DNA from: Pseudomonas putida
Lineage (GTDB): Bacteria; Pseudomonadota; Gammaproteobacteria; Pseudomonadales; Pseudomonadaceae
Reading direction: 5' to 3'
Length of the DNA stretch: 64,000 bases
Assembly (NCBI GenBank): GCA_041071465.1
Contig: CP163498.1
Coordinates: 2,136,001 to 2,200,000 of the forward strand
Part shown: one piece after another, positions 5,734 to 43,962 of the stretch
Position numbering within the stretch: the stretch's first letter is position 1
Layout: each line of letters starts with the position of its first letter
The notes under the pieces: generated by a model
The model's database searches: none
The model's input: only the letters and a program-made list of their open reading frames with translations
Told to the model about the DNA's origin: nothing
Translations under genes and position numbers: made by a program

Positions 5734-5901
5734 TGTTACGGATTAATAAACTTTGTCACAAAAGCTCTTGGATTCCGCGGCCGAGCGGGGGCGCTGATCC
5801 TGGAGAAGAGAGAATAAAGGTTGTCACAAAGCATAATCTTTCAAAAATTCTTGGGCTTTTCCGTTTAATAAAGGTCGTCACAACAGTAAAGGTTGTCACA
5901 G
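5734..5901. repeat. Left end: TGT terminus and four TnsB-type sites
   Basis: Sites match AAAGGTTGTCACAA at 5748-5761 (variant AAACTTTGTCACAA), 5816-5829 (perfect), 5870-5883 (AAAGGTCGTCACAA) and 5888-5901 (AAAGGTTGTCACAG). All point the same way, with the first about 14 bp from the terminus, mirroring the right end. Binding by TnsB is inferred from Tn7. Confidence 0.88.
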
Positions 5902-6203
5902 CAAAGGTTCAGCCAAAGAAAAATCACAAGGATATATCGTGCAAAAACCCCGGAAAAATTATGATGGTATCTTTGTACACAGAGGTAATCGGTACGAGCT
6001 TCTCCTGTTCACAGGTACTAAGTCTGTCTCATGCCCCCTCTTCACTCTGCCAGCACACAGTCCTAGATCGGGCCTTACAGTCCGGTTGGAAGCGATTCTC
6101 GGCTGCGCGGCGAAACAAGCAAAGGGCCAGTACAGCGAGCTCATGACGCAGCCCCACCGATACGTCATCAGAAGAAATTTCCATTGCCCGGCAAGCTGAG
6201 TTC
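5902..6203. other. Non-coding stretch between left end and ChrB-domain gene
   Basis: Nothing convincing is encoded. A minus-strand frame at 6029-6184 could give a 50-residue protein beginning MEISSDDVSVGLRHELAVLA, but it has no recognisable domain and no good ribosome site. Confidence 0.35.
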
Positions 6204-6269
6204 TTACATCTGCGGTGGCCTGGTGTGCGTTTCACCGTGGCAGTCACGGCACCATGCAAAGAGGGCGTC

Positions 6270-6656
6270 TTACAGAATCCGGCCATGTTTGAGCATTTCG
6301 TGGTCATCCGTGTAGCAGCGAAACAGCCCCAAAGAAATGGCGTAAAGCCCCGCCGACTGGGGCGTGAGATCCAGCCTGGACGTGTCCGCGCCACGGACGA
6401 TTTCGGCGAGCTTGGCCAGAGTGGGATCATCGAGCTGGTACTTCTTGAGGAAGGCGTCGAAGCTGCTTAACGGCCCGACATGGCTCAGGTCTACCCCTAG
6501 AATGTCATAGAGCGTGGCACCTTCATCACTTGCCACGCGCAAGACCTCGCTGCTGGGGACGTAGCGGAAAACCGGGACTGTATCGATGAAGCGCTGGATG
6601 AGCCAAGGACAGGCGATCCGATCGATCTTTGGACGTTCACGCGTTACCCATTTCAT
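6270..6656 (-). CDS. Single-domain ChrB C-terminal-like protein with early stop
   Basis: A ChrB C-terminal domain (chromate-resistance exported-protein family) opening MKWVTRERPKIDRIACPWLI and containing the conserved IVRGADTSRLDL and DDHEMLKHG segments. GGTGGGG precedes the ATG at 6656. An upstream ATG at 6689 would add 11 residues. The frame stops with TAA at 6272-6270, where relatives have a tyrosine codon. Without that stop it would continue DALFAWCRDC and end at 6204. Either the last about 22 residues were lost by one substitution, or the base is an error. It lies in the chr block after chrA. Confidence 0.7.
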   Translation of the reverse strand: MKWVTRERPKIDRIACPWLIQRFIDTVPVFRYVPSSEVLRVASDEGATLYDILGVDLSHVGPLSSFDAFLKKYQLDDPTLAKLAEIVRGADTSRLDLTPQSAGLYAISLGLFRCYTDDHEMLKHGRIL

Positions 6657-6725
6657 TGGACACCCCACCGCCGGCAGGCGATGGGTCATGAAACACCGGC
6701 CGATGATGTCGGCCGGCAGTTGGTT

Positions 6726-8095
6726 TCAACCACGCAACATGTGGACTGCCAGGCCTGCCAGGGCGCAAGCGAATAGAACCTGAATGACACCCCGCTTAAA
6801 GCGGAATAGGGCAATTGCTGCAGCAACCGCTATCATCGCTGAAGGCCAGTCAAACGCCCCACTGAAGCCTTTTGGCCAAAGTACGTGGTAGCCGAAGAAC
6901 ATGGCGAGGTTCAGGATCACCCCCACCACAGCCGCGGTGATGCCTGTCAGCGGTGCAGTGAATTTCATCTCGTTGTGAGTCGACTCCACCACTGGGCCAC
7001 CGGCAAGGATGAAGATGAAGGAAGGCAGGAAGGTGAACCAGGTCACGAGGCTCGCCGCGACTGCACCGGCAAGGAACGGGTGCTCCGCACCGAACATCGG
7101 ATGCACGTACCCACCGATGAATCCGACGAAGGCAACCACCATGATCAGTGGCCCTGGCGTGGTTTCCCCAAAGCGAGGCCATCGATCATTTGGGTTGGCG
7201 TCAGCCACCCGTAATGACCGACAGCGCCCTGGTAGACATAAGGCAGCACCGCGTACGCCCCGCCAAACGTCATCAGTGCAGCCTTGGTGAAGAACCAGCC
7301 CATCTGCGTCAGGCTGCCGTCCCAGCCAAACGACAGCGTTAGCAACCCCATGGGCAGCACCCACAGCGCTCCACCGACCAGCAGCAGGTGTACCAGATGT
7401 CCCCAGCTGAAACGGGCATGCTCAGGGGTTGGGGTGTCGTCATCGATCAGCGCCGGACCGAAGCTGTTCTTCGCGGCCCCATGACCGCCGCCGATCACGA
7501 ACTTGCCGGGTGCGAAGCGGCCCCCCACATAGCCGATGATGGCGGCCACCAGCACGATCAGCGGGAACGGCACGTTGAGGGCGAAGATAGCGACGAACGA
7601 GGCGCCGGCCATAGCCCACAGCCAGCCGTTCTTGAGGGCTCGTGAACCAATCCGGTGTGCAGCGTGGACGACAATGGCGGTGACCGCCGGCTTGATGCCA
7701 TAGAAAATGCCCGCGACTACCGGCACCTCGCCAAAGGCGACATAGACCCAGGACAAACCGATCAGGATGAACAGTGAAGGCAGCACGAACAATGCGCCGG
7801 CAATTACCCCACCCCAGCTGCGGTGCATGAGCCAACCGATATACGTTGCGAGCTGCTGAGCCTCGGGGCCGGGCAGCAACATGCAGTAGTTCAGCGCGTG
7901 TAGAAACCGTTTCTCGCTGATCCACCCCCTACGCTCGACCAACTCCTGATGCATGACTGAGATCTGTCCGGCAGGCCCGCCAAAGCTGATGAAGCCTAAC
8001 TTGAGCCAGAACAGGAAGGCTTCATACAGACCGATCGGCTGCTGAGACGCTTGCGATGGCGGCTGTTCACTTACTGCGGAGGTGGTATCAACCAT
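6726..8095 (-). pseudogene. chrA: Chromate transporter ChrA, frameshifted
   Basis: ChrA is an inner-membrane chromate efflux protein of two homologous CHR halves, about 400-450 residues long. Here 8095-7145 encodes the N-terminal 316 residues (FGGPAGQISVMHQELVERRGWI is the family signature). The frame is then lost at MIDGLALGKP, while another frame continues GETTPGPLIMVVAFVGFIGGYVHP to 6726. One extra G in the GGGG run near 7163-7170 would restore the conserved LALGETTPGP. Transcription is from chrB, whose stop overlaps the start. Either a recent pseudogene or a homopolymer sequencing error. Confidence 0.85.
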
Positions 8096-9029
8096 TTTGG
8101 GCTTCCTCGCTTGCGAAAGCCGTCAGCAGGCCATCGAAGATGCCTCCTGCGACCATTGTCAGTTGATCGTCATCGCCAATGCTCTCTCTCAATCCGGCGA
8201 GGACACGCTCGATACCGGGTGCTTCGGAAGGTTGTACGCCTCCCACATCCAGGTAGTGGATGACACCCGCCAGGCGTGCCAGGCCTGGCTGCTGAAAGGC
8301 GAAGCTCTCGATGAGGGTTTCGAAGGAAACCCGCTGGCCAACGTGGCTGAATCGGGCCCCATCAAAATCAAAGCCGAGCGCATCGCTTGGGCAGTCGCTG
8401 GGACTGTCCAACCAAATGAATTGGGCATCGGCATCAACGAAGCGACGGATCAGCCAGGCACAGGCCAACCGGTCTACCCAAGGACGTTTTCGCGTTGCCC
8501 ATCGGCGACCTTGGTATTCGCTGCGCTCCAGCTGGTTGATCGCCTCATCGTGCGCACTCGGCTCATCAGAAGACAGAGCGCGGCTAATCGCGGTCTCAAG
8601 CTCCTGCAGGGCCGCGTCGGCTTGGGTCTTGAGTACACCTGGGAAGAAATCGATCGCTGCCAACTGGCCGAAGGCCTTCCTGAGCTTGCGCACCTGTCGG
8701 GCTGTCAGCAACGCATTATCCGGGGATAGGTCAGCTCGGCAGCCTGCAATTTCTTCCATCAGCTTGGCGTATTCATCGCTTCTGTCGAATAGCCCGCTGA
8801 AGCGCTCCTCGCGTTCTGGCAACGACAGCAGAAATGCCGTGCCGTTGATGGCTAGCACATCTCGCTCCACGGCTTCGAACGTTTCGCGGCCCGCGCTTTG
8901 TTCCGGCAGCAAGTACACACCATCGCGTAGCACGGCGGCGCCAGAGGCCTTCAGCGTTCTCCAGGCGCGCATTCGTTCGGTGGCGTTTGCTGTCGGCAGT
9001 CCCAAAATCAATAGCGACCAGCTAATCAT
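8088..9029 (-). CDS. chrB: ChrB chromate-resistance regulator
   Basis: 313 residues with an N-terminal ChrB domain (SWSLLILGLPTANATERMRAWRTLKASGAAVLRDGVYLLP) and a C-terminal ChrB domain (RRWATRKRPWVDRLACAWLIRRFVD...). ChrB proteins are chromate-responsive regulators of chr operons in other proteobacteria. The stop codon region overlaps the chrA start, so the pair is co-translated. A short AT-rich gap to the divergent nreB probably contains both promoters. Confidence 0.9.
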   Translation of the reverse strand: MISWSLLILGLPTANATERMRAWRTLKASGAAVLRDGVYLLPEQSAGRETFEAVERDVLAINGTAFLLSLPEREERFSGLFDRSDEYAKLMEEIAGCRADLSPDNALLTARQVRKLRKAFGQLAAIDFFPGVLKTQADAALQELETAISRALSSDEPSAHDEAINQLERSEYQGRRWATRKRPWVDRLACAWLIRRFVDADAQFIWLDSPSDCPSDALGFDFDGARFSHVGQRVSFETLIESFAFQQPGLARLAGVIHYLDVGGVQPSEAPGIERVLAGLRESIGDDDQLTMVAGGIFDGLLTAFASEEAQNG

Positions 9030-9155: not shown

Positions 9156-9219
9156 CGCTGTTGTCGATCTGATGAAGTTCAGGCGATAGAGATCGCCTCC
9201 AGCCGTGCACGGAGGTGCC

Positions 9220-10524
9220 ATGCTATCTGTCCTGAAAAACCGCACTTACAGGCACCTGTTCATTGCTCAGGTGATTGCCTTGATCGGCACCGGCCTGGCG
9301 ACCGTAGCGCTTGGGCTTCTGGCCTATAATCTAGCCGGCGCGCAGGCCGGCGCCGTCTTGGGCACTGCGCTCGCGATCAAGATGGTGGCCTACATTGGCG
9401 TGGCGCCGATTGCCGGTGCGTTTGCCGAACACCTACCCAGAAAAGCCATGCTGGTCTCCCTCGACCTGGTCAGGGCAGCCGTGGCGCTGTTACTCCCGTT
9501 TGTCACCGAGATCTGGCAGATCTACGTGCTGATTTTCGTGCTGCAGTCTGCATCTGCCGCGTTTACGCCAACGTTCCAGGCCACCATTCCTGACATCCTC
9601 CCTGACGAGCGTGAGTACACCCGGGCGCTATCACTTTCGCGCCTGGCTTATGACCTGGAGAGTGTTATTAGCCCGATGCTCGCGGCAGCCCTGTTGACCG
9701 TGGTCAGCTTCCACAGCCTGTTCGGTGGCACCGTCGTGGGTTTCCTCGTGTCAGCTGCGATGGTGGTTTCAGCGGTATTGCCGGTAGCCGTTCGCGGGCC
9801 CAAGCGGAGCATCTACGAGCGGACGACCAAAGGCCTACGGATCTTCCTGCGTACCCCGCGCCTGCGCGGCCTCCTGGCCTTGAACCTCGCAATTGCTGCA
9901 GCCAGCGCGATGGTTATCGTGAATACGGTCGTGTTGGTTCAGGCGAAGCTTGGGCTGGATCAGAGCGCGATGGCCATGGCGTTGATGGCTTTCGGTGGCG
10001 GTTCGATGGTGGTGGCCATGCTGCTTCCGCGACTTCTTGAGCGTCTGGACGATCGTAAGGCCATGCTTGCCGGCGGAGCGATCCTGGTGGCTGGTTTGCT
10101 GATCGGGGCTTTCGTCTCCAGTTATTCGGCCTTGGTTGTTCTGTGGGTGGTGCTGGGCGCTGGATATTCCCTGGCACAAACGCCGTCGGGGCGGATCTTG
10201 CGTCGATCTTCTTCGGCTCAGGATCGACCAGCGCTGTTCGCGGCGCAGTTCGCCTTGTCTCATGCTTGTTGGCTGATTACCTACCCGCTGGCCGGGTGGC
10301 TGGGAGCCAGCGTCAGCCTCACTGCTGCGTTCGTTGGCCTAGGTCTACTCGCTGGGTTTGCGTGGACACTGAGCAAATGGATCTGGCATCCCGACCATGA
10401 GCACGAGGTTGTGTCGCATCAGCACGACGATCTTTCGGAAGATCATCCTCATGTCGCTGATGGAAAATCTCATGCGCACTCGTTTGTCATTGATGAGCTC
10501 CACCGGAAATGGCCACGGCGATAG
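9220..10524 (+). CDS. nreB: NreB-like nickel exporter (MFS)
   Basis: An inner-membrane major facilitator protein of 434 residues, with about 12 hydrophobic segments and a cytosolic His-rich tail (HPDHEHEVVSHQHDDLSEDH near the C-terminus, then more HxH). This architecture, and the opening LKNRTYRHLFIAQVIALIGTGLATVALGLLAYNLAG, fit the NreB/NrsD nickel-efflux group. GGAGGT at 9211 fits the ATG at 9220; an in-frame GTG at 9205 is less likely. The palindromic operator upstream and the Ni/Co sensors nearby support nickel or cobalt as inducer. The symbol is by similarity. Confidence 0.82.
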   Translation: MLSVLKNRTYRHLFIAQVIALIGTGLATVALGLLAYNLAGAQAGAVLGTALAIKMVAYIGVAPIAGAFAEHLPRKAMLVSLDLVRAAVALLLPFVTEIWQIYVLIFVLQSASAAFTPTFQATIPDILPDEREYTRALSLSRLAYDLESVISPMLAAALLTVVSFHSLFGGTVVGFLVSAAMVVSAVLPVAVRGPKRSIYERTTKGLRIFLRTPRLRGLLALNLAIAAASAMVIVNTVVLVQAKLGLDQSAMAMALMAFGGGSMVVAMLLPRLLERLDDRKAMLAGGAILVAGLLIGAFVSSYSALVVLWVVLGAGYSLAQTPSGRILRRSSSAQDRPALFAAQFALSHACWLITYPLAGWLGASVSLTAAFVGLGLLAGFAWTLSKWIWHPDHEHEVVSHQHDDLSEDHPHVADGKSHAHSFVIDELHRKWPRR

Positions 10525-10807: not shown

Positions 10808-11749
10808 TTAGGCTTGGTGAATTTCGACGGTCAGGTGCCGAATTTCATGAACCGGCAACAGCCGCTCACGAATACTTTCAACACTGGTTGCGGCTTTGCC
10901 AACAACGCTGACGATAGCGGCGTGGGCGTCGGGGCCTACGCGCCAAACGTGAAGATCGCAGATGCGGACGTCACCCGGTTGCTCAATGAACTCGCGGATT
11001 TCCTGCGCTACGTGATCATCAGTTTTGTCCAGAAGGACGCCGGCAGTCACTTTCATCAGGTTCCAGGACCAGCGCCCGATAACAACGGCGCCGACGATGC
11101 CCATCACAGGGTCGAGCCAGACCCATCCAAGGTATTTGCCCGCCAGCAGTGCGACGATCGCAAGGACCGAGGTCAGTGCATCGGCCAGGACATGCACATA
11201 GGCCGATTGCAGATTGTTGTCGCCGTGCCCGTGGCCATGATCGTGGTGATGGTGGTGGTCATGCCCGTGATCATGGTTGTGCCCGTGGCCCAGCAGCAAC
11301 GCACTCACGATGTTCACCAGCAAGCCAACTATCGCGATACCAATCGCGATGCTGAATTGCACTTCATTCGGTTGGAACAAACGGACGATCGACTCAGCAC
11401 CCACTGCCAGGGCAACGAGTCCCAGGATCAGCGCCGAAGCAAACCCACCCAGATCGCCGACCTTGCCCGTACCAAAACTGAACCCAGAGTTGGTGGCGTG
11501 TCGCTTGGCATACGCGTATGCAGCGGCCGCGATGCCGAGCGCACCAGCGTGTGTGGCCATGTGGAAGCCGTCGGCGAGTAGGGCCATCGATCCGGTGATG
11601 TAGCCTGCGGCAATCTCACCCACCATCATTACAACGGTCAGCAACACGACCCAGAGCGTGCGCTTCGCATTCTCTTCATGGGAGGCACCGAGAAAAACAT
11701 GGTCATGGGTGGTTGCCGTCGTGCTCATAGCTTGGATGTCCGAAGTCAT
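10808..11749 (-). CDS. dmeF: DmeF-like cation diffusion facilitator
   Basis: 313-residue CDF-family divalent metal/proton antiporter of the inner membrane. Six hydrophobic segments are visible, with the metal-site motif HMATHAG in TM2 (LADGFHMATHAGAL) and HVLADALTSV in TM5. A very His-rich cytoplasmic loop (about 17 His in roughly 27 residues, LGHGHNHDHGHDHHHHHDHG) lies between TM4 and TM5. The C-terminal domain ends with LTVEIHQA. Pairing with a RcnR-type regulator matches dmeRF loci for cobalt/nickel. It overlaps dmeR by ATGA. Confidence 0.88.
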   Translation of the reverse strand: MTSDIQAMSTTATTHDHVFLGASHEENAKRTLWVVLLTVVMMVGEIAAGYITGSMALLADGFHMATHAGALGIAAAAYAYAKRHATNSGFSFGTGKVGDLGGFASALILGLVALAVGAESIVRLFQPNEVQFSIAIGIAIVGLLVNIVSALLLGHGHNHDHGHDHHHHHDHGHGHGDNNLQSAYVHVLADALTSVLAIVALLAGKYLGWVWLDPVMGIVGAVVIGRWSWNLMKVTAGVLLDKTDDHVAQEIREFIEQPGDVRICDLHVWRVGPDAHAAIVSVVGKAATSVESIRERLLPVHEIRHLTVEIHQA

Positions 11750-13056: not shown

Positions 13057-13794
13057 TCAAGCGGTAACAATCAGGCCAGTCAGCTGATAACCCATCAGCA
13101 GGAAACCGGCGCTCATCATGGCAACGTTGGCGGTGTAGGCGTGACGCCAGAAACCACCGGTTCTTCTCCAGAAGCCCATCACGATCAGGATGGCGCTCAG
13201 CGCGAGCAACTGACCGATCTCAACCCCGACATTGAAAGCAATGAGGTTGGGGATCAGGCCGTCGGCCGAGATTTCGTACTCCTGGATCTTTGTTGCCAGG
13301 CCAAAGCCATGCAGCAGGCCGAAGACGAGCGTCGCGGCTTTGGTGTTCGGCTGGTAACCGAACCAGCGCTTGAAGGCCCCCAGGTTGTCCATCGCCTTGT
13401 AGACCACCGAGAAACCGATGATCGCGTCGATGATGTAGGAGCTGATGCTGATCTCAGTAAGCACGCCGAACAGCAGCGTGACCGAATGTCCAACGGCGAA
13501 TAGCGTGACGTAGAGGCCCACGTCCTTGAGGCGGTAGAGGAAGAAGATGACGCCGAACAGGAACAGCAGGTGGTCATAGCCCGTCATCATGTGCTTGGCG
13601 CCCATGTAGATGAACGGGATCAGCATGACCCCCGAGCTTTCCTGGATGAATCCCTTGTCGCCTTCCGCTACGGCGTGTGCCAATGCCTCCGGCATGCCGA
13701 TAAGCAATGACGCGACGAACAGGAACAAGAGGCAGATGGGATGGCGTGCACGCACAGCGAGCAAGCTCCCACCCGTTATCGAGTGTAAACGCAT
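13057..13794 (-). CDS. HupE/UreJ-family membrane protein
   Basis: 245 residues with an N-terminal signal (LLFLFVASLLIGMPEALAHA) followed by about six transmembrane segments. The family motifs GYDHLLFLFGVIFFL and FAVGHSVTLL, and the second-half HGFGLA and FNVGVEIGQL, are the HupE/UreJ nickel-permease signatures. Direction of transport is not certain. Its place in a Ni/Co resistance block with sensor genes suggests a role in nickel handling. Confidence 0.8.
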   Translation of the reverse strand: MRLHSITGGSLLAVRARHPICLLFLFVASLLIGMPEALAHAVAEGDKGFIQESSGVMLIPFIYMGAKHMMTGYDHLLFLFGVIFFLYRLKDVGLYVTLFAVGHSVTLLFGVLTEISISSYIIDAIIGFSVVYKAMDNLGAFKRWFGYQPNTKAATLVFGLLHGFGLATKIQEYEISADGLIPNLIAFNVGVEIGQLLALSAILIVMGFWRRTGGFWRHAYTANVAMMSAGFLLMGYQLTGLIVTA

Positions 13795-14619: not shown

Positions 14620-15060
14620 GTGTTCGAGCTCACCAGCTACCTCGGCCTGTTTCTGGCAGCTTTTGCGGCCGCCACGCTGCTACCCATGCAGTCAGAAGCC
14701 GCGCTGGCCGCGATGCTAGTGTCTGAGCTGTACCTGCCCGTGGCGCTTGTCGCGGTGGCTACCGCCGGCAATGTGCTGGGTTCCGTGGTTAACTGGTTTT
14801 TGGGTCGAGGCGTCGAGCACTTCAAGCACAAGCGCTGGTTCCCGATTAGGGAGTCCAAGCTGGAGAAGGCACAAGTCTTCTACCAGCGCTATGGATACTG
14901 GTCACTGCTATTGAGCTGGGTACCCATTATCGGCGATCCAATTACGTTGGTAGCCGGGGTCATGCGCGAGCCACTTTGGCGGTTCACACTGTTGGTGACC
15001 TTGGCCAAGGGTGGGCGGTACTTGCTACTGACTCTTTTGGTACTCGGGAGCATGCCGTGA
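14620..15060 (+). CDS. YqaA-family (DedA-related) inner-membrane protein
   Basis: 146 residues from a GTG start 4 bp after the sensor gene. It contains the SNARE-associated/DedA-type pattern: two re-entrant hydrophobic parts, GNVLGSVVNWFLGRG, and WVPIIGDPITLVAGVMREPLW. The YqaA family's function is not established; DedA relatives affect membrane lipid transport. The stop overlaps the next GTG start (GTGA), so it is tightly coupled with the traX-like gene. Confidence 0.8.
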   Translation: MFELTSYLGLFLAAFAAATLLPMQSEAALAAMLVSELYLPVALVAVATAGNVLGSVVNWFLGRGVEHFKHKRWFPIRESKLEKAQVFYQRYGYWSLLLSWVPIIGDPITLVAGVMREPLWRFTLLVTLAKGGRYLLLTLLVLGSMP

Positions 15061-16150: not shown

Positions 16151-16179
16151 TGCGAGAGTTTTAATTCTCTAAATCCAAT
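16151..16179 (+). repeat. 29-bp repeat, inner copy
   Basis: 26 of 29 bases match 5700-5728 just outside the transposon. Here an upstream GAATTAAA (about 16139-16146) pairs with TTTAATTC, giving a hairpin. The copy is followed by CGTCCCGAGTCCCG rather than TTTGA-TGT, then a hairpin of GGCCTC/GAGGCC near 16206. Confidence 0.55.
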
Positions 16180-20855: not shown

Positions 20856-20896
20856 CCCTGGACGATGACTAACTGATCTTGCCGCTACGAGACCAC

Positions 20897-23029: not shown

Positions 23030-23060
23030 CAGCGATAAACCGATGGGCTAATGGCAGGGG

Positions 23061-34233: not shown

Positions 34234-35145
34234 CTAGAGGTCCCAAGCATTCTCGGCGAGTAAAAAATCTTTGACGTAGTCGCGCTGCTTTGAAAGAGTG
34301 GAGCGGTTTAGAGCCCAGCCGAGATGAGCGCTGACAAACTCGCCCTGAGTCTCGTCGAAGTAATAAGCCGTGCGCGCCTTCGCCAAGGAATACAGATTGA
34401 TCAGCCGAGCACGTACGTGCGGCTTGAGATGATCATAGACGACAACGTTGGGGTTATTGGAGAATACTAAAGCTTTACCTGGCGAGATGGCGATGATGAA
34501 CAACAGGTCCCTCAAATAGTCTCCCCAGCGAGATGCGGGGTAATCAGATGCGAGCAAGCCCGGTTGTTCCCAATTGTACTCCCGCATGGTTGCCTTCAAG
34601 AGTCCATCTGAAAATGCCTCGTCAATAAACGGCGAAATCTCGTTCTGGGCGAATAGGACTAACGACATCGCACCGAGGGACTTGCTTGATTTAAAATAGT
34701 CAACCACTTCATTGATCGAAGTATGTGATGAGATCTGCTCATCCTTCATATTTTGCCTAATAAGATCGAGTTCCGAGCGGATATCCATGGCTTTTAGAAT
34801 GTCGGGATGGCGAGCCTCCAGAAACGTCAGGGTGTTCGCCAGTTGTCGGCGGTCCAGATGGTTCCAACCCTGAACTCTACTGCTACGTGCCTTTTCGATG
34901 ATCTTATGGCCCGCTTCATCAATCATCGGGGTAATATGGCTGGATTCGACCTCAAATCCCCCATCGGGAAAGTCGATACGGTACAAGTCCTCAATCGAAG
35001 CAGTATGTTTTATAGCAACCGGCTTGATTTCCAGCGCACCATTCGAAGGCAGTCGGCGGTAGCGGAAGACTCTCCCAGGAGCGTATTGCCAAGCCTTGAG
35101 AAAGTGTTGTGGAACGAAATGGTGATTGCGAGGGGGATTCGGCAT
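34234..35145 (-). CDS. DUF4238 protein
   Basis: 303 residues beginning MPNPPRNHHFVPQHFLKAWQ, the DUF4238 signature HHFVPQxxLKxW, with a conserved later pair near WNHLDRRQLANTLTFLEARHPD and ISPGKALVFSNNPNVV. The His-rich start suggests a metal-dependent enzyme, but the activity is unknown. DUF4238 genes are frequent on mobile elements. It is divergent from the interrupted tniQ-like gene, sharing a 36-bp gap. Confidence 0.75.
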   Translation of the reverse strand: MPNPPRNHHFVPQHFLKAWQYAPGRVFRYRRLPSNGALEIKPVAIKHTASIEDLYRIDFPDGGFEVESSHITPMIDEAGHKIIEKARSSRVQGWNHLDRRQLANTLTFLEARHPDILKAMDIRSELDLIRQNMKDEQISSHTSINEVVDYFKSSKSLGAMSLVLFAQNEISPFIDEAFSDGLLKATMREYNWEQPGLLASDYPASRWGDYLRDLLFIIAISPGKALVFSNNPNVVVYDHLKPHVRARLINLYSLAKARTAYYFDETQGEFVSAHLGWALNRSTLSKQRDYVKDFLLAENAWDL

Positions 35146-35367
35146 GCAGTGGTTCTCTCCAAAAATGAGGATGCTATAGCAATGAAGATTTTCACACCAT
35201 TACCTGGAGAATATGTGGCGTCGGCACTGCAGCGGGGAAACGAGATGCTCGGTATCCGAACCCTGCCACATGAGGATTTCCGGATAAGACCGATACCAAG
35301 AACAGGTTACGGACGCAAAGGAATTGGGGGAAACGGCGATTTTCAAGGTAGTTGTCGCGTGAGCGTG

Positions 35368-36417
35368 TCACGCTGCCTTTGATGTTTGCTGCAGTACCGC
35401 TTCCCGCTCCGGGTTCAGGCACACGATTGGTGCCAGCACCCAGTTCCTGATGTTGCCGCTCCAGCGCTCCGGGTGCCGTGCACGCGCCGCCTCGTACAGC
35501 TCGATACGCTTGCGCAGCAACTCTTCTGCCTGGCCAGTATGTCGCTGCGCCGGGGTCACGAACTTCAGGGCGCTGTGGCGATGTTCATGGTTGTACCAGG
35601 CCACGAAGCTGTTCACCCAGTTCCTGGCCTGCTCCAGCGTGTCGAAGGGCCGCTCCGGCCACAGCGGGCAGTACTTCGCCGTGCGGAACAAGGCCTCGGC
35701 ATAGGCGTTGTCATTGCTCACCCGCGGGCGGCTGAACGAGGGCATCACACCCAGGTTCTGCATGGCCGCCAGCATGGTCGAGCCCTTCATCGCGCTGCCG
35801 TTGTCCGAGTGCAGTACCAGCGGCTGGCCTGCCCGCTGTTCACGTAGGCAGGCCTGGCGTAGCAGCTGGGCGGCCTGCTCGGCGCTTTCACTTTCATGCA
35901 CCTCGTTGGCCACCAGCTTCCGGCTGTAGACGTCCTTGATCATGTACCAGTAGAAGTAACGGCCCTTGACCGTGGTCGGCAGCCAGGTGATGTCCCAGCA
36001 CCACAGCTGGTTCGGGCCGTCGGCCACATGGGTCGTCAGCGCTCGTTTCACCGGTGGGCGGCTACGGCCGCGCGGATGCTGCTGTTCGGCGTCCTTCAGC
36101 AACCGGTAAAAGGTCGACTCCGAGGCCAGCCAGGTGCCCTGATCGGCCAGCCGCGCCACGATCTGCTGCGGCGGCAGGCTGGCAAACTCGGGCTGGTTGG
36201 CGACCTCCAGCACGCGGCAGCGCTCTTGCGGGGTCAGCTTGTTGGCCGGCTCAGCTCGCTGTGCCGAAGGACGCCGATCCTCCGGGCAGTGCTGCCAGCG
36301 CTGCAGGCTGCGCAGCGACAGGCCCAGTTCGGCGCAGGCCTGCGCCCGCCGCGCTCCCGCCGCCACGGCGCCCTCGATCAACTGCAGCGTTTCACGGCGA
36401 TCCGGGGCGCTGATCAT
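35368..36417 (-). CDS. IS3-family transposase OrfB (rve integrase)
   Basis: 349 residues. An N-terminal helix-turn-helix (GARRAQACAELGLSLRSLQRW) precedes an rve DDE core (WCWDITWLPTTVKGRYFYWYMIKDVYSRKLV; LHSDNGSAMKGSTM; SRPRVSNDNAYAEALFRTAKYCP) and a C-terminal WYNHEHRHSALKFVTPAQRH. It starts in an ATGA overlap with OrfA, so it appears to be made as a separate protein. Confidence 0.92.
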   Translation of the reverse strand: MISAPDRRETLQLIEGAVAAGARRAQACAELGLSLRSLQRWQHCPEDRRPSAQRAEPANKLTPQERCRVLEVANQPEFASLPPQQIVARLADQGTWLASESTFYRLLKDAEQQHPRGRSRPPVKRALTTHVADGPNQLWCWDITWLPTTVKGRYFYWYMIKDVYSRKLVANEVHESESAEQAAQLLRQACLREQRAGQPLVLHSDNGSAMKGSTMLAAMQNLGVMPSFSRPRVSNDNAYAEALFRTAKYCPLWPERPFDTLEQARNWVNSFVAWYNHEHRHSALKFVTPAQRHTGQAEELLRKRIELYEAARARHPERWSGNIRNWVLAPIVCLNPEREAVLQQTSKAA

Positions 36418-36935
36418 TCGTCCTCGTCCTTCCCCCAGAGCGCCTCGGCTTTTTTTCGCAACACCAGCAGAGCTGCGGTTTCTGCCAGCGCCGCATCCTT
36501 GCGCCGCAGTTCACGCTCCAGCTGCTTGATGCGCTTCTTCGCGGCCTTTTCCTCTTCGCGTTCGCGCCGGGTCTTGCTCGGCTGAGCCAGGCTGTTGGCC
36601 TGCTCGCAGGCTTCGCGCCAGGCGTTGATCTGCTCGACATACAGGCCTTTGCGCCGGCAGTACTCCGCCAGCTCAGCCGCATTGAGGCTGGCGCTTTCCA
36701 GCACCACCCGAAACTTGTCCTGGCTCGACCACTGGTCGGCCTGCTGTCCATCTGCCGGCACCACTGCTCCCGCTGCTCTGGCCTGTTTGCGCCAAGCATA
36801 CAGGGTGGCATCAGTAATGCCTGTCGCTTCCACCAGCTCCGGCACCGTCCGGTTCAAGGGCGGCATCATCTGCCGCACCACCCACTCCCGATGCTCTATC
36901 GAATAACGCGCCACACGGCTCTCACTTCCGCCCAC
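36414..36935 (-). CDS. IS3-family transposase OrfA
   Basis: 173 residues with two helix-turn-helix regions (VPELVEATGITDATLYAWRKQAR and NAAELAEYCRRKGLYVEQINAWR) and a C-terminal coiled coil (TRREREEEKAAKKRIKQLERELRRKDAALAETAALLVLRKKAE). It binds the IS ends. Confidence 0.88.
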   Translation of the reverse strand: MGGSESRVARYSIEHREWVVRQMMPPLNRTVPELVEATGITDATLYAWRKQARAAGAVVPADGQQADQWSSQDKFRVVLESASLNAAELAEYCRRKGLYVEQINAWREACEQANSLAQPSKTRREREEEKAAKKRIKQLERELRRKDAALAETAALLVLRKKAEALWGKDEDE

Positions 36936-37717
36936 CGACCAAGACTCATCGAATCAACTCACACGACAACTATCCTGACGCGGCGGGGAAAAGCGGAAAT
37001 TAGGGGGTACGCAATTTTTAAATTTCCCTCCTTATTTACTGAACGAAAAATCACGGAAGAGGTTTTGCACAACCACACCCTGTACCCTCTCACCGCAGCG
37101 CTAGGCCGACCTACAAACCAAACAATAGTAACCCCCGCTTATTGGAAAAAAATTTGCCCCGAATGCGCATTCGAGGACTTTGAGAATCACGGCACAGCGT
37201 ACGTACATCGAAGCCATGTACAGTCTTATGTTAAGGTTTGTAGCATCCATGGTTCTGACCTCATAACTATCTGCCCCGCATGTTCAACCCCCATTAATAA
37301 GCATAAAATAACCCAACTAGGAATATGCAGTCAAAAATACAAAAACCCGACACGTCAATGGAAATCACCGAACCATCTGTATTCAATATTTATCGCAGAA
37401 CTTCTGAACTACAAAGGCCCTCCAGCTAAAACGCACAACGCTGAATGGATAGTGACCAAAAGCTTATACAAAAATTATTTCGATGAAATATACGGCAATT
37501 ATGGATACGTGTCTGAAATTATAGTGCGTGAGCTCGGCACAAAAACTATAAATCCCTATTCAAAGGGGGCGACTGATTACAACTTCGTAATTCAAGCCTT
37601 CCTAGGCTGTCGCACCGCTGCCAGATACCTAGACTTGCTAACAAACAGTGCCGCGTGCACTCAGTTGCAAAACGAAGTTAATGAACTTATTCGGTCTGAC
37701 TTCATCAAACGCAAATA

Positions 37718-39187
37718 TCATACAGTAGATAGAATACCTAGTACCTCCTCATCAGTTACATGAGACAGCCGAATCCCAGCAAGCCGGTACACAACACTTA
37801 TAGCACTTCGCTCAGATAGAAGATAATGTCTCACCGCCCATCTGATTTTACGAACTTGATGGTCATGATCAGATTCGAGAATATCTTTCATCAACAAAGT
37901 ACTTATTGGGAACTTATCAGGTACCCTCAAAAAATCATGGCTACGAGCGACCTTCCTGCTTAACGCGGCGCGGGTCACCTTTTTCGGTTTGCCCTGCGTA
38001 GACAGAATCTGGTCCCTGGCGATTAGCAGATCTTGAGCAAGCGCTGCGTCTCTCGCATGCCAATCGACCAACCCCCTCCTTACCCTTATGAAAGGATGGG
38101 CAGACACATACTGCGCTAACCACTCCTTATCATGGCGGTAAAGCCACTGATAGCCCGGCTTATCATGGCATTTCGCGTTCTTGCTGCTCGAGAAAGCTTC
38201 GCGGCGTGCCTCAATTTCGCCGTCCTCTATGAGGGGCCTAGTATCGTTGCCCCTAGCCGCTTCACCGCTGCGAGCATCAGCTCGCGGGTGAAAGGATTTG
38301 AGGTGCTCAAGGTCTGCCTCAAGGAGCCAGCAAAGAAAGTAGAATTTTAATGGCTGTACGACCGCCCCGCGTGGACGCACGACGCCCAACACCCAGTCCC
38401 AAGAGCAACTGAGCTCCTGGAACTCATTAGCGCGAGGGCTACAGAGAAGACGCGGCGTCAGGAAGCTCCTTAATACCTGTTCCCTCACCCGACCAGCCTT
38501 AAGAAACCCCATCTCATCCAGACGATGCTGAAGGAAGTTTCCGGTCAGCAGATTTTGTACATCCGCTGGGTGCTCAAGTCCCCAAAACTGCATTTCACCT
38601 ATCACAGCAGCTGAAGAGTCAGGAGCCCGCATCACTGGCGACCCCGCTGCCTCCGCCGGAAACAGCATGCAACGCCAGTCAGTTCCATCCGGAAACATCG
38701 TCCCGCAGAGCACCTCTCCATGGAGCGGGCAGATGCAAGTACCCATTGCTTGGTGAATACGATGCCAGTAGGCCGAGCCGCAGTTTTGAATATCTTCTTC
38801 AACACACCTCTCGCAGTACCTGAACGACGCGTGCTTGAGGAAGCCTGAGGCTGTGAGACCCAGGCTCATTTTCAGGCCCGTGCCGTCGGTACCAGTCATG
38901 GCGATACGCGCGGCTTTGCTCTTCGTGTCATTCAAAAAAGGTTCGTACAGAGGCAAAAGGGTAAAGCGATCGATCAAATGCTCTACCGAATAAGCTGATG
39001 CTAACCGTTGCGACAGAGCACCCAAGCAGCACGGCAGGATAGAGCCACAGGTTCTGGAATACGCGCCGAACAACTCCTGGCTTGTCCGGCGATAGCTGTC
39101 GTTCGACGACAGCCTATGATAACGGACCGCCAGGCTGTAGAGAGACTCATCAGGGAACGGCTGAGGAAACCAATGCAAGCGATCCAT
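37718..39187 (-). CDS. tnsD: TnsD (TniQ-family) attTn7 target selector
   Basis: 489 residues. An N-terminal TniQ domain (HWFPQPFPDESLYSLAVRYHRLSSNDSYRRTSQELFG) with zinc ligands (FRYCERCVEEDIQNCGSAYWHRIHQAMGTCICPLHG) is followed by a long DNA-binding C-terminal region with WLYRHDKEWLAQYVSAHPF and WHARDAALAQDLLIA. TnsD binds the 3' end of glmS and recruits TnsC. The insertion point 24 bp past glmS fits. It starts 24 bp after tnsC. Confidence 0.92.
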   Translation of the reverse strand: MDRLHWFPQPFPDESLYSLAVRYHRLSSNDSYRRTSQELFGAYSRTCGSILPCCLGALSQRLASAYSVEHLIDRFTLLPLYEPFLNDTKSKAARIAMTGTDGTGLKMSLGLTASGFLKHASFRYCERCVEEDIQNCGSAYWHRIHQAMGTCICPLHGEVLCGTMFPDGTDWRCMLFPAEAAGSPVMRAPDSSAAVIGEMQFWGLEHPADVQNLLTGNFLQHRLDEMGFLKAGRVREQVLRSFLTPRLLCSPRANEFQELSCSWDWVLGVVRPRGAVVQPLKFYFLCWLLEADLEHLKSFHPRADARSGEAARGNDTRPLIEDGEIEARREAFSSSKNAKCHDKPGYQWLYRHDKEWLAQYVSAHPFIRVRRGLVDWHARDAALAQDLLIARDQILSTQGKPKKVTRAALSRKVARSHDFLRVPDKFPISTLLMKDILESDHDHQVRKIRWAVRHYLLSERSAISVVYRLAGIRLSHVTDEEVLGILSTV

Positions 39188-39211
39188 TGACCTGATCTCC
39201 CGCGGTTCATG

Positions 39212-40660
39212 TCACCAAGCAGAGTCCTTATCTACCCAGCCTCTCTGCTCGAGCTGGGTCTGCACATCATCGCCTTCGGAGAAATGGGCAGTTGGTGCTG
39301 ACTCGTTGGCAACCGGAACCACCGGTTTACTAATAGGCTTTGCGGCTGCCCTTTCACTGTGCTCGACAGGTGTCACTATCGCGGCCTGGGTAATTAAAGA
39401 GAGATTCGCCCTGTCTGCACGCCGCGCCAAATCGTAATTCATCATCTTGGCGACCTGGTCCTTCGTGGGCATCATGTCTTCGAAGTCAGCAATTTGCAGC
39501 GGATCCCCGCTTCGTAGAGCCTCGATGGCCTTATGAAGGAGCCTCATCTGACTGTCGTACACCTGCTGCAGAACCGCCGGTGTAATCGAGTCGATGCCCT
39601 CCCAGATTGCGTGCCGCTGAGCCAGCATTAGAAGTTTGGCCAGGAAATCCGTGTTTCCTTGAGTGAGGTCATATATTTTGGAAAGGATCTCACCCGTCAA
39701 CGGAGTGGGGGTTTTGGTCCAGTCGTATGCCCAGAGCAGTGAAACCAGATGCGCCCAAAACGGATCATCTTCGGTAAACCTGTCAAAAGTGATAGGCCCC
39801 ATTCCTGCCGCACGCCGAGCATTTCGCAAAACACCAGAAAACAGCGGAAGCATGGCATTTGTGCCAACGTAGATCAGCGGGATGCCGGCGTCATTCGACA
39901 GCTGCACAAAAAAGTTGAGAAGCTTTTCGCGGTCTTGCCCGCCTCGGGATGAGCAGAGGTGCTGCATCTCATCAATTATGAGAGCTCCGATGAAATAGGT
40001 TTTGCACAACTGACTGATATTTTGAAGCATCACGCTGATGCTGCGGCCAGTAGCAGCTCTGCCTGAGTACTTTTTTATGCCTAATGCTTCATCCAATGAA
40101 GAGAAGAATGCGGTACAAAAACCTCGCAACGAGCCATCGTGCGGACAATCGATCTTGAGCCAGACCACCTGCGTCTCAATGAAGATCTGCTCTTTATACT
40201 TACTGTGACTGATCACCTGTGGATAAAGCTTGGCAATGGAGTTCAGCGCAGTCGTTTTACCCATGCCGCTCAACCCGATCAGTGTCAACGTTTCAGCGGT
40301 GGACATAAACCCGTGCCCCTTGATCTCCGCAGAAGAGGGCAAGCGATGCCTAACGGATGACGCATGCAATGGATTGCGCCCGGTGTATCCGTACCGAATC
40401 AATTGACTGAACAGGTCCTCAAGCCTGAGGTGGATTTCAAAAGGTACAACGACATCCTTCAGCCTGTTGATGCCATGACCACGTAATTTCGGGTCCAAGG
40501 CCCGCTCCACGTTGTCAGGCCGGGGCGGGGCGCTCCCAATGCGCCTGACTACATCAACATCCGAAAGAATCTTCGGGAGACACTCAATCAGTGGGTTACC
40601 GTCGTATTGAGGCATGCCAGTCGGGTTGTAATCTGCTGGCGCAAAACTGGAATCACTCAT
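39212..40660 (-). CDS. tnsC: TnsC AAA+ ATPase
   Basis: 482 residues. Walker A GLSGMGKTT at 129-137 and Walker B GALIIDEMQHL near residue 232 are visible, followed by a sensor-like LIYVGTNAM. TnsC links TnsD-bound target DNA to the TnsAB transposase and controls immunity. Its start overlaps the tnsB stop (ATG at 40660, stop at 40653). Confidence 0.95.
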   Translation of the reverse strand: MSDSSFAPADYNPTGMPQYDGNPLIECLPKILSDVDVVRRIGSAPPRPDNVERALDPKLRGHGINRLKDVVVPFEIHLRLEDLFSQLIRYGYTGRNPLHASSVRHRLPSSAEIKGHGFMSTAETLTLIGLSGMGKTTALNSIAKLYPQVISHSKYKEQIFIETQVVWLKIDCPHDGSLRGFCTAFFSSLDEALGIKKYSGRAATGRSISVMLQNISQLCKTYFIGALIIDEMQHLCSSRGGQDREKLLNFFVQLSNDAGIPLIYVGTNAMLPLFSGVLRNARRAAGMGPITFDRFTEDDPFWAHLVSLLWAYDWTKTPTPLTGEILSKIYDLTQGNTDFLAKLLMLAQRHAIWEGIDSITPAVLQQVYDSQMRLLHKAIEALRSGDPLQIADFEDMMPTKDQVAKMMNYDLARRADRANLSLITQAAIVTPVEHSERAAAKPISKPVVPVANESAPTAHFSEGDDVQTQLEQRGWVDKDSAW

Positions 40661-42824
40661 GACTAGCCTCGTTACCCGCGTTGATCACCAATTTCAGGAA
40701 GGCGGCGCTCCGACCCGAGACAGGTTTCACGGTTACAGGTGTATAAGTCTCCTCCGCGGCTGGCGAGTTATCCACAAGGCGAAGCTGATTTAGGTCAGCG
40801 GTATGCAAGTCGCGCTCAGTCTGGGTTTCAACGGCACGTTTCGAACGCTTGTCCCGCTTGAACTCAGCGTCAGATTTCGGATCTCCCTGCCCCTGGCGTT
40901 TGGCTTGCGCTCGATGAAGAATCTCCTCCTGGCGGCCTTGAAGAAGCGCTCCAGTATTGGCATCCTCGTACCGGGCATCTGGGGCGACCTGATTCAAAAT
41001 CTTGATAATATCGAGGACCTCCTCCATACGAAGCCCACCGTACTTAACCCGCTGCTGCGGTACAATGGTCAACGGCTCGAAACCCGCCTCAGATTTCATC
41101 CAGCAGTTCTCAATAGAGTTTGGATCGTAGAAAACCCTAACGTACCTCGTTTTAAAGTTGTGAGAGCGCTCCAACCATTCCGAACGAATGGCGGTTTCAC
41201 AGGTGTACTGCACACCTTGGAAATTTATACCTCCTCGACCAATTCGACACACCTGCGAGGGTAACAATGCAATCTTCAGCTCCGCTGGTGATACGAATTT
41301 CGAATTCAGGAGATTGTTTGCCATAGACCACTTCCACATGGCCATAGGCGTGGGCTCCACTTCTGCCGCGATCATCTCACGGTTCAGAAGATGAGGAACT
41401 CGAAGGCTCTTGTTGTGAGCCAAAACACCGAGGATTACCATCTCAGTAAACTCATCGATATCGAAAATTGCGTCGAGCTGGTAGTCACGATCACCACGCT
41501 CCATTTTCCGAGCATCTACGCCGCCAGGGACAAATTTCAAATCCAGCTTTTCGTTGAGCAGTCGGAAACGGCTTTCAATGATACTTTTCCAGTCAGGCCG
41601 AAACGGTGGCAAAATCTTCAAGGCTGTACCAAGAGTCTTTGTCATCGTCTCCCCAGCTTCACTGAGAAGTTCAGCGCGATCTGCGACGATTTCAACCGGT
41701 AGATGAGAACATGGCCAGTCAACCTCATCGATCTCAATATTATAACGCTTGCAAAACTCCTTCTTCGGCGTGCAAGCATTATAAATGGCATGTCGAGCAC
41801 CATTCCAACTGGGCCCTTCAAGCCCGACATGAATACCTACGATCATTCTGGTGAACGTATCAACCAACACATACAGCACTGGCCTGCCGATCAACCATAA
41901 CCGATTGACTCGATGTACCAAATAAACATCAGCAATCGTCGAATCGATTTCGTACCGATGACTTGCACCGACTAACCCTTGAGAGGCAGATCCAACTAGC
42001 GCACGATGGTCTTTATTATAGCGGATTGCGCCGCCGCTCTTCTTCAACCTATAGAGTTCATCAAAGAAAAGTTTTCCATGGTACTCCAGTTGATTGATGG
42101 ACGGGTAGCTACCTCGAACCAGGTTACCTTTTGAACCGTCGGACTTGATCGACCGATAAAACTTATTGAGCATCCAATCATAGGCTTTCTTTAGCTTGCC
42201 ACACCTGCCACTGGCAAAGCGCCCATAGGCCAAGCGAATATGCGAGATGTGCCGTGACTCGAGCAGAATTGCGCCACCGTCATCCACAACTACGCCACGA
42301 TATTTAAGCGGTCGGCCAGGAACAATGCCTGAGGCCCGACTTTTTTTCTTTCCACGGCCTCCACACGTGCTGGTATTCCACAAAAATGCGTTTCGTGTCT
42401 GCCCCATGCTCCAATACCGATAGAGAAGTCGATAAATTTGCTTCCGGTCAACTCCCACTACCATTGCGTGATTAGCAACAAGGGAACCAAAGTTAGACGT
42501 CAAGATATCGAGGGGGCCATGATTCTCCACCAAACCACGTACCAGCTCCCAGTTCCTATCTCGGCTGTCTTTTTCATTCTCACTGATCTCGTCGTCACTT
42601 CGAAGCAAGTGCATAGGTACCATTTCAGGGTTGATCACCGCCGCTCCGTTATTGATCTCTTCGATCAATAGTGAGCTTCCAACCCGCCATGGCTTCGTCG
42701 GACTTGTACCGAGTTCAATGACTAAGACAAACTCATCCTTTATAGCTAAAACTCTGACCGGTTTCTTCAGCAGCTCAGATCCCTCACCCGGAGAAACGAT
42801 GCAGTTAACTCCCAGACTAAGCAT
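40653..42824 (-). CDS. tnsB: TnsB DDE transposase
   Basis: 723 residues from the ATG at 42824; a further ATG at 42881 would sit inside tnsA. The DDE integrase core has YEIDSTIADVYLVHRVNRLW, then PVLYVLVDTFTRMIVGIHVG, EIVADRAELLSE, and RPDWKSIIESRFRLLNEK. N-terminal DNA-binding helices include QIYRLLYRYWSMGQTRNAFL. It binds the 14-bp end repeats and joins 3' ends to the target. The start overlaps the tnsA stop by 8 bp. Confidence 0.95.
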   Translation of the reverse strand: MLSLGVNCIVSPGEGSELLKKPVRVLAIKDEFVLVIELGTSPTKPWRVGSSLLIEEINNGAAVINPEMVPMHLLRSDDEISENEKDSRDRNWELVRGLVENHGPLDILTSNFGSLVANHAMVVGVDRKQIYRLLYRYWSMGQTRNAFLWNTSTCGGRGKKKSRASGIVPGRPLKYRGVVVDDGGAILLESRHISHIRLAYGRFASGRCGKLKKAYDWMLNKFYRSIKSDGSKGNLVRGSYPSINQLEYHGKLFFDELYRLKKSGGAIRYNKDHRALVGSASQGLVGASHRYEIDSTIADVYLVHRVNRLWLIGRPVLYVLVDTFTRMIVGIHVGLEGPSWNGARHAIYNACTPKKEFCKRYNIEIDEVDWPCSHLPVEIVADRAELLSEAGETMTKTLGTALKILPPFRPDWKSIIESRFRLLNEKLDLKFVPGGVDARKMERGDRDYQLDAIFDIDEFTEMVILGVLAHNKSLRVPHLLNREMIAAEVEPTPMAMWKWSMANNLLNSKFVSPAELKIALLPSQVCRIGRGGINFQGVQYTCETAIRSEWLERSHNFKTRYVRVFYDPNSIENCWMKSEAGFEPLTIVPQQRVKYGGLRMEEVLDIIKILNQVAPDARYEDANTGALLQGRQEEILHRAQAKRQGQGDPKSDAEFKRDKRSKRAVETQTERDLHTADLNQLRLVDNSPAAEETYTPVTVKPVSGRSAAFLKLVINAGNEASHE

Positions 42825-43716
42825 GACGAGGCACCTCGATTTCTGATGTGCTGGAAAAGGATGGCTCAGCAATCCAAACATGCAAAGGTTCAGATAAGCT
42901 TATTACCTTAGCGCTTAGACTCGCCCCCAGTCTGCCCGTCCAAAGAAGATGGTGGAAGAGGCGTTTAACACCAATATATTCTATAAAAATTACCCTCGAG
43001 GCTTTTTGCAGCAGTGCCTTTAGTGGCAATTCACTAGTCTTACATCCCGCTATAAATTCGAGCAGATTATTTATATTATTCTCCGTCGGCAACGAAGGAT
43101 GGATGACCGCGTAAGTTCTAAGTATGACAAGATTTGCTATTTTAACTTGCGAGAGATTTTCATGGAGAACCAGTTTCCATTCTACCTTTCTCATAGCCCA
43201 ATATTTAGCTTCGATCTCAAGCTTTTCCGCCATCCGATTCTGCTCCTTGAGGCTGGCATCCTCGAACTCCTTACGGTATTTCACAGAGCGCGCGGCCAAG
43301 GTTGCTTCGCCCTTCGAATCTATGAAAGTTATGAGGAAGTCAGTGGTCATAACCACTGGGACTTGAGTACCTGGATACACAGGATGACGGTAATTCAGGC
43401 TTGACGCGATCGCTTGAGTCTCAGCTTGCGTTAGGAGCGGGAACTGCTCACGAATGTCGATGATGGAAGGATCATGCTCAAGGATCAGGTGATAGTCGCG
43501 CTCAGCGTTGGATAGCAAATGATGACTGCGATGAAATTTCACACCCGGTACAAGATGCGACACCCCGCTCGACTGGATATCCCAAATCTTGATCCAAGGC
43601 TCATAGGACTCTCTAACGCCAGATCCGCGACCCGATTGTATTCTTCTATCAATTTTCCGCTGAGTCATTAGCTTCGAGCTAGCTGGATTCACCGGTTCAG
43701 TGGGTACAGATGTCAT
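42817..43716 (-). CDS. tnsA: TnsA endonuclease
   Basis: 299 residues of the TnsA family, with the restriction-enzyme-like core HHLLSNAERDYHLILEHDPS...TTDFLITFIDSKGEATLAAR...SVKYRKE (candidate E, D and K residues) and a C-terminal helix-turn-helix domain that contacts TnsC. It cleaves the 5' ends, allowing cut-and-paste movement. It is the first gene of the tnsABCD operon, reading away from the glmS-proximal end. Confidence 0.93.
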   Translation of the reverse strand: MTSVPTEPVNPASSKLMTQRKIDRRIQSGRGSGVRESYEPWIKIWDIQSSGVSHLVPGVKFHRSHHLLSNAERDYHLILEHDPSIIDIREQFPLLTQAETQAIASSLNYRHPVYPGTQVPVVMTTDFLITFIDSKGEATLAARSVKYRKEFEDASLKEQNRMAEKLEIEAKYWAMRKVEWKLVLHENLSQVKIANLVILRTYAVIHPSLPTENNINNLLEFIAGCKTSELPLKALLQKASRVIFIEYIGVKRLFHHLLWTGRLGASLSAKVISLSEPLHVWIAEPSFSSTSEIEVPRHA

Positions 43717-43894
43717 TTCACGAGTCGCTCATCGTTGAGTGACCCGCTCGATCGGATCGGAACGACACAGGTCGTGGCGCGGAGAAATTCAAGAGCGGGC
43801 TCAGCCAGGACAGCAGTCACTGTGGTGCAGAAGGGATTGTGATCCTATATCCATGGACAAGGCTCTGCCCCGACAAACGGGCCGTGACAGAGCC

Positions 43895-43962
43895 TTGTGA
43901 CAACCTTTCTTAACTTGTGACAACCTTTATTTTTTTGTGACAACCTTTATTCTTTAAAAACA
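43895..43962. repeat. Right end: three TnsB-type sites and ACA terminus
   Basis: TTGTGACAACCTTT at 43895-43908, 43915-43928 and 43935-43948, exactly 20 bp apart, are the complement of the left-end sites. A weaker site, GTGACAGAGCC, precedes them. The ACA terminus is at 43960-43962. The array lies in the tnsA upstream region and could also autoregulate tns expression. Confidence 0.9.

Follow-up and report, generated by a model that had tools for sequence, protein, structure and literature searches.

One of the closest described counterparts of the locus reported here is region 31 of Pseudomonas putida W619, for which Wu et al. 2010 (PMC3056050) give chrFAB, nreB, a cation diffusion facilitator (CDF) gene, ISPpu14, copSR, copABMG, and tnsABCD; a traX tag falls within that gene series, and KT2440 is noted there to have tnsABCD as well. 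We analyzed a 64,000-bp stretch of a P. putida genome (GenBank assembly GCA_041071465.1, contig CP163498.1 of 6,319,294 bases, positions 2,136,001 to 2,200,000), hereafter the window. It contains a 38,229-bp block (5734 to 43962) that, judging from sequence comparison, is almost certainly a complete, heteromeric Tn7-like transposon from a lineage found across Pseudomonas, located at attTn7. Compared by printed locus tags, its gene order is that of region 31 (chrFAB, nreB, CDF, traX, ISPpu14, copSR, copABMG, tnsDCBA), an account that, as printed for that region, gives no ends, duplication, or glmS. An earlier, sequence-only reading of the window had called it a distinct lineage; novelty is not supported, since the lineage is common (a TnsB of at least 60% identity in 21 of the 398 genus genomes searched) and, for W619, the order of the cargo and tnsABCD had already been printed. 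This is a correctly delimited, ordinary Tn7-like element of a common Pseudomonas lineage.

Other described systems share single traits with it. The plasmid selector of Tn7 is TnsE, and Tn5053 targets plasmid resolution sites, presumably with TniQ (PMC11406308). Faure et al. 2023 (PMC10293859) reported 998 dual TniQ-TnsD loci, in which the smaller protein was suggested to work with a further selector. A survey of 6,549 Tn7-like elements found IS3-family insertions in about 30% of them (PMC8649781); the P. syringae pv. syringae copper Tn7-like transposon cited there (Aprile et al. 2021), likened here by its title, likewise concerns copper resistance in Pseudomonas. A chromate-bearing Tn7 element is carried by plasmid pTTS12 (PMC9537497), and Tn6411 is found at glmS and on plasmids, with TnsE present (PMC11232968). 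Among the publications we screened, titles and the beginnings of abstracts held no account of the end-repeat lineage described below and no test of its second TniQ.

We read both termini directly. The block opens with TGTTACGGATTAATAAACTTTGTCACAA, the left terminus being TGTTAC from 5734, and closes with TTGTGACAACCTTTATTCTTTAAAAACA, the right terminus being AAAAACA ending at 43962; a copy of TTTGA adjoins each terminus (Table 1). The repeat AAAGGTTGTCACAA was found on the plus strand of the left end at 5748 (2 mismatches), 5816 (none), 5870 (1), and 5888 (1), at offsets identical to those in two relatives (G092 and G045), and on the minus strand of the right end at 43895, 43915, and 43935, all exact. 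The spacing thus differs between the two ends, as in Tn7-like elements. Since the left copies carry up to 2 mismatches, the earlier count of four left and three right repeats stands at that tolerance and not as a count of exact copies. With up to 3 mismatches allowed, the window contains 11 matches to AAAGGTTGTCACAA, 4 of them outside the ends, against a chance expectation of 3.97; with up to 1 mismatch allowed, six of the seven end sites were the sole matches in the whole genome, and a reversed control pattern had none. The right terminus lies 24 bases from the stop codon of glmS, and tnsA, -B, -C, and -D adjoin the right end. All four genes are open, and their products match the solved Tn7 TnsA, TnsB, TnsC, and TnsD. 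Positions that we take to be the D, D, E catalytic core line up between the TnsB of the element and that of Tn7. The termini proposed in the sequence-only reading were therefore right to the base, by direct reading as well as by the comparison with relatives below; its 24-bp distance from glmS was confirmed, which supports insertion at attTn7, and ORF (open reading frame) and Pfam matches place the metal cargo and tnsABCD inside the element, as it had claimed.

We then looked for TnsB in 398 genomes of the genus, counting that of the window: 115 genomes have a match at E <= 0.001, and 21, again with the window genome, have a TnsB of at least 60% identity. Both ends could be read in eight elements (the window, 5 of the 20 other genomes at or above 60%, and two plasmids), and all eight have a perfect 5-bp duplication: TTTGA in the window; CAGAT, CAACG, CCTCC, CCCCT, and GTTTC in the genomes; and GTTAG and CGAAC on the plasmids. 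To find the left end, we searched for the five bases just outside the right end, then TGT and two or more repeats; the duplication was part of this search, and the count leans on it. The closest element, of 39,191 bp, is at glmS in P. putida 31800 (G092, also locus L085; NZ_JANHLC010000003.1) and is 99.96 to 100% identical to that of the window over 27.4, 7.0, and 2.2 kb, with TnsABCD at 100%. Inside the termini, 200 of 200 bases are identical at each end; outside them the flanks are unrelated, with 17/40 identical bases on the left and 1/24 on the right. The 31800 element has its own duplication, CAGAT, lacks the IS3-type insertion that splits a second tniQ gene (tniQ2) in the window, and carries about 2.6 kb extra elsewhere. 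Identical termini, unrelated flanks, and a separate duplication point to a recent transposition of the unit. They argue, as do the four open tns genes, against an island swapped by homologous recombination between glmS regions, the ends and duplications then being relics and the element dead. Such an exchange through glmS would be possible, given that elements stack at this site and that another genome of the same species has other DNA in the slot (see below), and we consider it very unlikely.

Empty sites were read for two plasmid copies. The flanks of the element on pNY5709-IMP (NZ_MN961670.1), searched apart, each match eight records including pNY5709-IMP, and in three of the seven others (NZ_CP118678.1, NZ_MK496050.1, and NZ_CP143525.1) they overlap by exactly 5 bases. 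The Pseudomonas veronii copy has an empty site in CP027480.1, with both flanks full and a 5-base overlap. A single GTTAG and a single GTTCG (complement of CGAAC) were read in these two sites, which by eye have no common motif. The flank of locus L087 gave no usable empty site, that of pKF715A matched its own record only, and on pCF39S the outermost right end seems truncated and no duplication was readable. The pNY5709-IMP element resembles that of the window in TnsB (99.7%), TnsD (97.3%), a DUF4238 protein (99.3%), and the right end, and differs from it in lying away from glmS and in having different cargo, an intact tniQ2, and the duplication GTTAG.

Evaluation of the lineage revealed that the right end is 22 to 26 bp from the glmS stop in 17 of the 21 loci with a TnsB of at least 60% identity, window included, and that the right end, wherever it was recognized, has three sites at a 20-bp period. 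P. putida, P. sichuanensis, P. orientalis, P. juntendi, P. soli, P. entomophila, P. amygdali, and P. lundensis are among the relatives in 15 named loci; four places carry two names (L085/G092, L086/G309, L091/G329, and L095/G045), and the counts of right ends and of tniQ2 overlap. The end site changes with TnsB identity, from TTGTGACAACCTTTATT and its variants at 60 to 100%, to TTGTAACCGACTTAATT at 46% and TTGTGTCAATCTTTATT in the 37% clade, and Tn7 of R721 has ACAATAAAGTCTTAAACTGAACAAAAT. The end repeat thus differs from that of Tn7, as had been stated earlier, and its covariation with TnsB fits a distinct end specificity; for the former claim of a distinct lineage with a TnsB specificity of its own, support extends to this covariation and no further.

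We considered whether the element might be Tn7 proper, or a close tnsABCDE relative, with merely diverged ends. The tnsABCD order, the TGT/ACA ends, the 5-bp duplication, and the orientation of the right end towards glmS are as in Tn7, TnsB and TnsC match their Tn7 counterparts strongly, and AATAAAG is common to both end repeats. However, the rest of the repeat differs, and the three right-end sites at a 20-bp period contrast with the four partly overlapping ones of Tn7 (PMC11406308). Furthermore, TnsE_C was not detected in eight genomes and two plasmids carrying the lineage (0/10) nor in two further plasmids (0/2), in a search that Tn7 of R721 passed at 2.1e-56, that was negative also in 14 control genomes, and that could miss a TnsE diverged as far as the one of Tn6022. 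Tn7 of R721 resembles the window element in having tnsA next to a TGT end that carries repeated sites and in its kind of transposition proteins, and differs in its end repeat and in having TnsE. With neither TnsE nor the Tn7 end repeat found, Tn7 itself has next to no chance of being the right assignment. A Salmonella plasmid match (H4) was rejected as a Tn7 yardstick, since its right end differs from that of Tn7 and TnsE_C is negative; R721 was used instead.

The sequence-only reading had proposed an empty site joining CGTTTCAAA to ATTGGGTTTAG. We searched the joined flanks in 38 relatives and 16 chosen genomes (2 in both), and none matched closely across the junction. Three genomes (G007, G002, and G022) match across the junction at 77 to 78%, because a Tn7-like end of another kind adjoins their glmS. 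The sole genome labelled as the same species, G289, matches the left 5,732 bp at 99.6% and the right 1,860 bp, including glmS, at 98.5%, in both cases up to the junction. Beyond glmS, G289 reads CGTTTCAAA and then TGATCGTAAATATTAAAGTCTGTCTC, and the far flank starts after CGATCA. ATTAAAGTCTGTCTC sites are located at 11029 and 11049 of locus L070 and at 6855, 6907, and 6965 of L071, and these other ends occupy L070 from 11018 and L071 to about 6990, beside glmS. This draft genome yielded neither a TniQ family match nor one to the window TnsB at E <= 0.001. We infer that another Tn7-like element occupies the same slot in G289. Flanks running on into the interior in a strain without tns genes, which would have contradicted the earlier delimitation, were not seen in G289, where the flanks end at other Tn7-like ends.

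The left flank has a history of its own, which the earlier account had left out together with the split tniQ2. ATTGGGTTTAG corresponds to the terminus of an older Tn7-like end of a third kind, GCGACAGCTTTAATTCTCTAAACCCA, rather than to plain host DNA. A pattern derived from such ends has, with up to 3 mismatches, two matches in the window (this one and an internal one at 16152), with 0.08 expected. As an old Tn7-like end forms the left flank, elements stack at the glmS site, and we read this as one attachment site reused by different lineages, the window element being nearest to glmS. Proteins of the 37% clade, compared with 20 kb plus the window in search of the tns genes of the older lineage, matched only the window tns region and glmS, and that lineage may be more distant. 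In loci L040, L042, and L044, tblastn places TniQ-like frames (30 to 32% identity) no more than a few hundred bases from the glmS match. The uninterrupted junction of the species is predicted to read CCCAATTTTGAAACG / CTCTAAACCCAATTTTGAAACGATTAC with one TTTGA. As a separate observation, two different Tn7-like lineages in L023 and L034 have one and the same sequence directly beside their right ends; it contains TTTGACAC repeats and may be the end of a further element.

Several points weigh against a complete Tn7-like transposon at attTn7. No chromosomal empty site with a close match was found in the genomes searched, and the two G289 flanks sit on two contigs, with a readable overlap of TTTG, 4 bases, short of a clean 5. 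Four of the 21 loci lack the glmS arrangement: L010 has no glmS in its stretch, L013 runs into a contig end, the right end of L022 is damaged, and in L023 the end adjoins other DNA. The pNY5709-IMP flanks are far apart in three of the seven other records, and in NZ_CP097104.1 they abut with the last 190 bases of the left flank missing. TnsB matches no Pfam and no NCBIfam family at E <= 0.001 despite its strong match to the solved Tn7 TnsB, and TnsE_C was not detected. A complete transposon at attTn7 nevertheless remains by far the most probable reading.

In what follows, protein roles are inferred from Tn7; ends, duplications, position, gene content, relatives, and the split tniQ2 are direct observations. 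TnsB would bind the AATAAAGGTTGTCACAA-type sites of either end, and TnsB and TnsA would excise the element, while TnsC would relay the target signal. TnsD would read the 3' end of glmS, such that the right end is placed 22 to 26 bp past the stop with a 5-bp duplication. Insertion between glmS and the older Tn7-like right end brought in genes for chromate, copper, and cation transport. Because tniQ2 is split by the IS3-type insertion, the window copy probably keeps only the glmS pathway.

The least ordinary part of the element is tniQ2, a second targeting gene, which is conserved in the lineage and disrupted in the window copy. It is split near residue 50 and lies tail to tail with tnsD; GGGGAAA is found at 35327-35333 and 36985-36991, on either side of the insertion. 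The split looks recent, since both pieces are identical to the intact gene of strain 31800 (Table 1). The gene is present in 13 of the 15 named loci, the other two (L089 and L090) ending before its place, in 8 further loci searched (the window split, and several being the same places renamed), and in all four plasmid records with a TnsB of at least 60% identity. The ratio of nonsynonymous to synonymous substitution rates (dN/dS) is 0.16 to 0.30 in six tniQ2 pairs, a seventh being saturated. TniQ proteins bind zinc, and eight Cys/His columns (C106, C109, C134, H137, C145, C148, H155, and C163) are invariant in 11 aligned TniQ2 proteins. Structure prediction from 11 sequences gave a mean pLDDT (predicted local distance difference test) of 49.5, too low for the model to be of help. 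As in the dual TniQ-TnsD loci (PMC10293859), there are one large TnsD (489 aa here) and one small TniQ (274 to 307 aa here); unlike in those loci, as far as they are described there, tnsD and tniQ2 are convergent on opposite strands, with no known partner.

The lineage reaches plasmids without a recognizable TnsE, judging from the records at hand: among 72,556 plasmid records (those close to the window genome may have been omitted), four hold a TnsB of at least 60% identity, and the stretches taken from these four had no glmS match. Given these records and the lack of a detected TnsE, the small convergent tniQ2 may be a plasmid-target selector in place of TnsE, alone or with a partner, while TnsD would direct insertion to glmS; we offer this tentatively and consider it rather unlikely. 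If true, the window copy would be a natural tniQ2 knockout stranded at glmS. A divergent TnsE or a partner gene may have escaped detection. It is quite conceivable, short of an even chance, that tniQ2 has no targeting role and is a carried-along duplicate of tnsD, the plasmid copies stemming from rare events for which it was not required: the copy in the window sits at glmS with its tniQ2 split, and dual TniQ-TnsD sets arise repeatedly by duplication (PMC10293859). The retention of the gene, its dN/dS, and its invariant Cys/His columns speak against a mere duplicate. Every member long enough to tell has tniQ2, so the lineage provides no natural contrast for its role. A P. mandelii locus (L099), considered as a further plasmid insertion, was dropped, because the type of gene that had matched, an Xre/MbcA antitoxin, also lies beside tniQ2 in L103 and L104. 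On the P. veronii plasmid (L048, 8936-11864), tnsC and tnsD are each in two overlapping frames, and that copy may be dead or the record erroneous.

The remaining genes of the element are listed in Table 1. The two overlapping ORFs of the chromate transporter family look as if one gene were split between frames. The HupE/UreJ family protein is presumably a metal permease. The DUF4238 gene is found in the closest relatives only, not lineage-wide, and a DUF4238 gene also lies at 5573-6601 of L071, near the far end of the other element of G289. The pNY5709-IMP element contains SAVED-domain, nucleotidyltransferase, ThiF, and Mov34/MPN genes (L100, 4211-8892), a set that we take to resemble a defense operon of the CBASS type (cyclic-oligonucleotide-based antiphage signaling system). 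No Cas family was found among the window proteins run through Pfam, which left out some ORFs; arrays were not searched.

Table 1. Features of the Tn7-like element and its flanks (positions in the window)
Feature	Position	Strand	Basis or remark
Solitary right end from an older Tn7-like lineage of another kind (GCGACAGCTTTAATTCTCTAAACCCA), outside the element	5701-5726	+	Also in G289
Left target-site duplication, TTTGA	5729-5733	.	Read directly
Left end: TGT terminus and four TnsB-type sites	5734-5901	+	Offsets 14, 82, 136, 154
ChrB_C protein, chromate cluster (6270-9029)	6270-6689	-	Pfam
Chromate_transp ORFs, chromate cluster	6726-7364 and 7145-8095	-	Pfam
ChrB-like protein, chromate cluster	8088-9029	-	Pfam
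MFS transporter, at the nreB place of the W619 order	9205-10524	+	Pfam MFS_1; PMC3056050
Cation diffusion facilitator (Cation_efflux)	10808-11749	-	Pfam
HupE/UreJ family protein	13057-13794	-	Family match
TraX family protein	14976-15788	+	Family match; W619 counterpart traX, PputW619_5167 (PMC3056050)
Relic inside the element, similar to the right end of another Tn7-like lineage (GCGAGAGTTTTAATTCTCTAAATCCA)	16152-16177	+	Pattern match
Sulfate-permease family protein	18442-19941	+	Family match
Universal stress protein	19953-20804	+	Family match
NUDIX protein	20879-21430	+	Family match
IS66-family insertion sequence, three ORFs	21464-23725	-	W619 has ISPpu14 here (PMC3056050)
copS-like, copper two-component system	24111-25520	-	Family match
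copR-like, copper two-component system	25517-26194	-	Family match
copA-like multicopper oxidase	26748-28565	+	Family match
copB	28863-30008	+	Family match
DUF411 protein	30488-31246	+	Family match
DUF4238 protein	34234-35145	-	
tniQ2, 5' piece	35182-35333	+	152/152 nt identical to intact gene of strain 31800
IS3-type insertion in tniQ2 (ORFs 36414-36935 and 35368-36417)	35334-36984	-	Missing from strain 31800 copy
tniQ2, 3' piece, TniQ domain	36985-37763	+	756/756 nt compared identical to strain 31800
tnsD, TniQ and TnsD domains, presumed glmS selector	37718-39187	-	Pfam and solved Tn7 TnsD match
tnsC, AAA ATPase	39212-40660	-	Matches Tn7 TnsC, E 4.8e-68
tnsB, transposase	40653-42881	-	Matches Tn7 TnsB, E 3.5e-78
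tnsA, endonuclease	42817-43716	-	Matches Tn7 TnsA, E 3.1e-28
Right end: three exact TnsB-type sites, 20-bp period, ACA terminus	43895-43962	-	
Right target-site duplication, TTTGA	43963-43967	.	Read directly
glmS, 3' end towards the right end of the element	43987-45822	-	ORF and Pfam

For a common Tn7-like lineage of Pseudomonas that carries metal resistance between species, the element provides a reference settled to the base by comparison. The stacked ends suggest that three or more kinds of Tn7-like ends have made use of the attTn7 of one species. Finally, the intact and the IS-split tniQ2 in near-identical elements form a natural pair for the role of the small TniQ in dual TniQ-TnsD elements.

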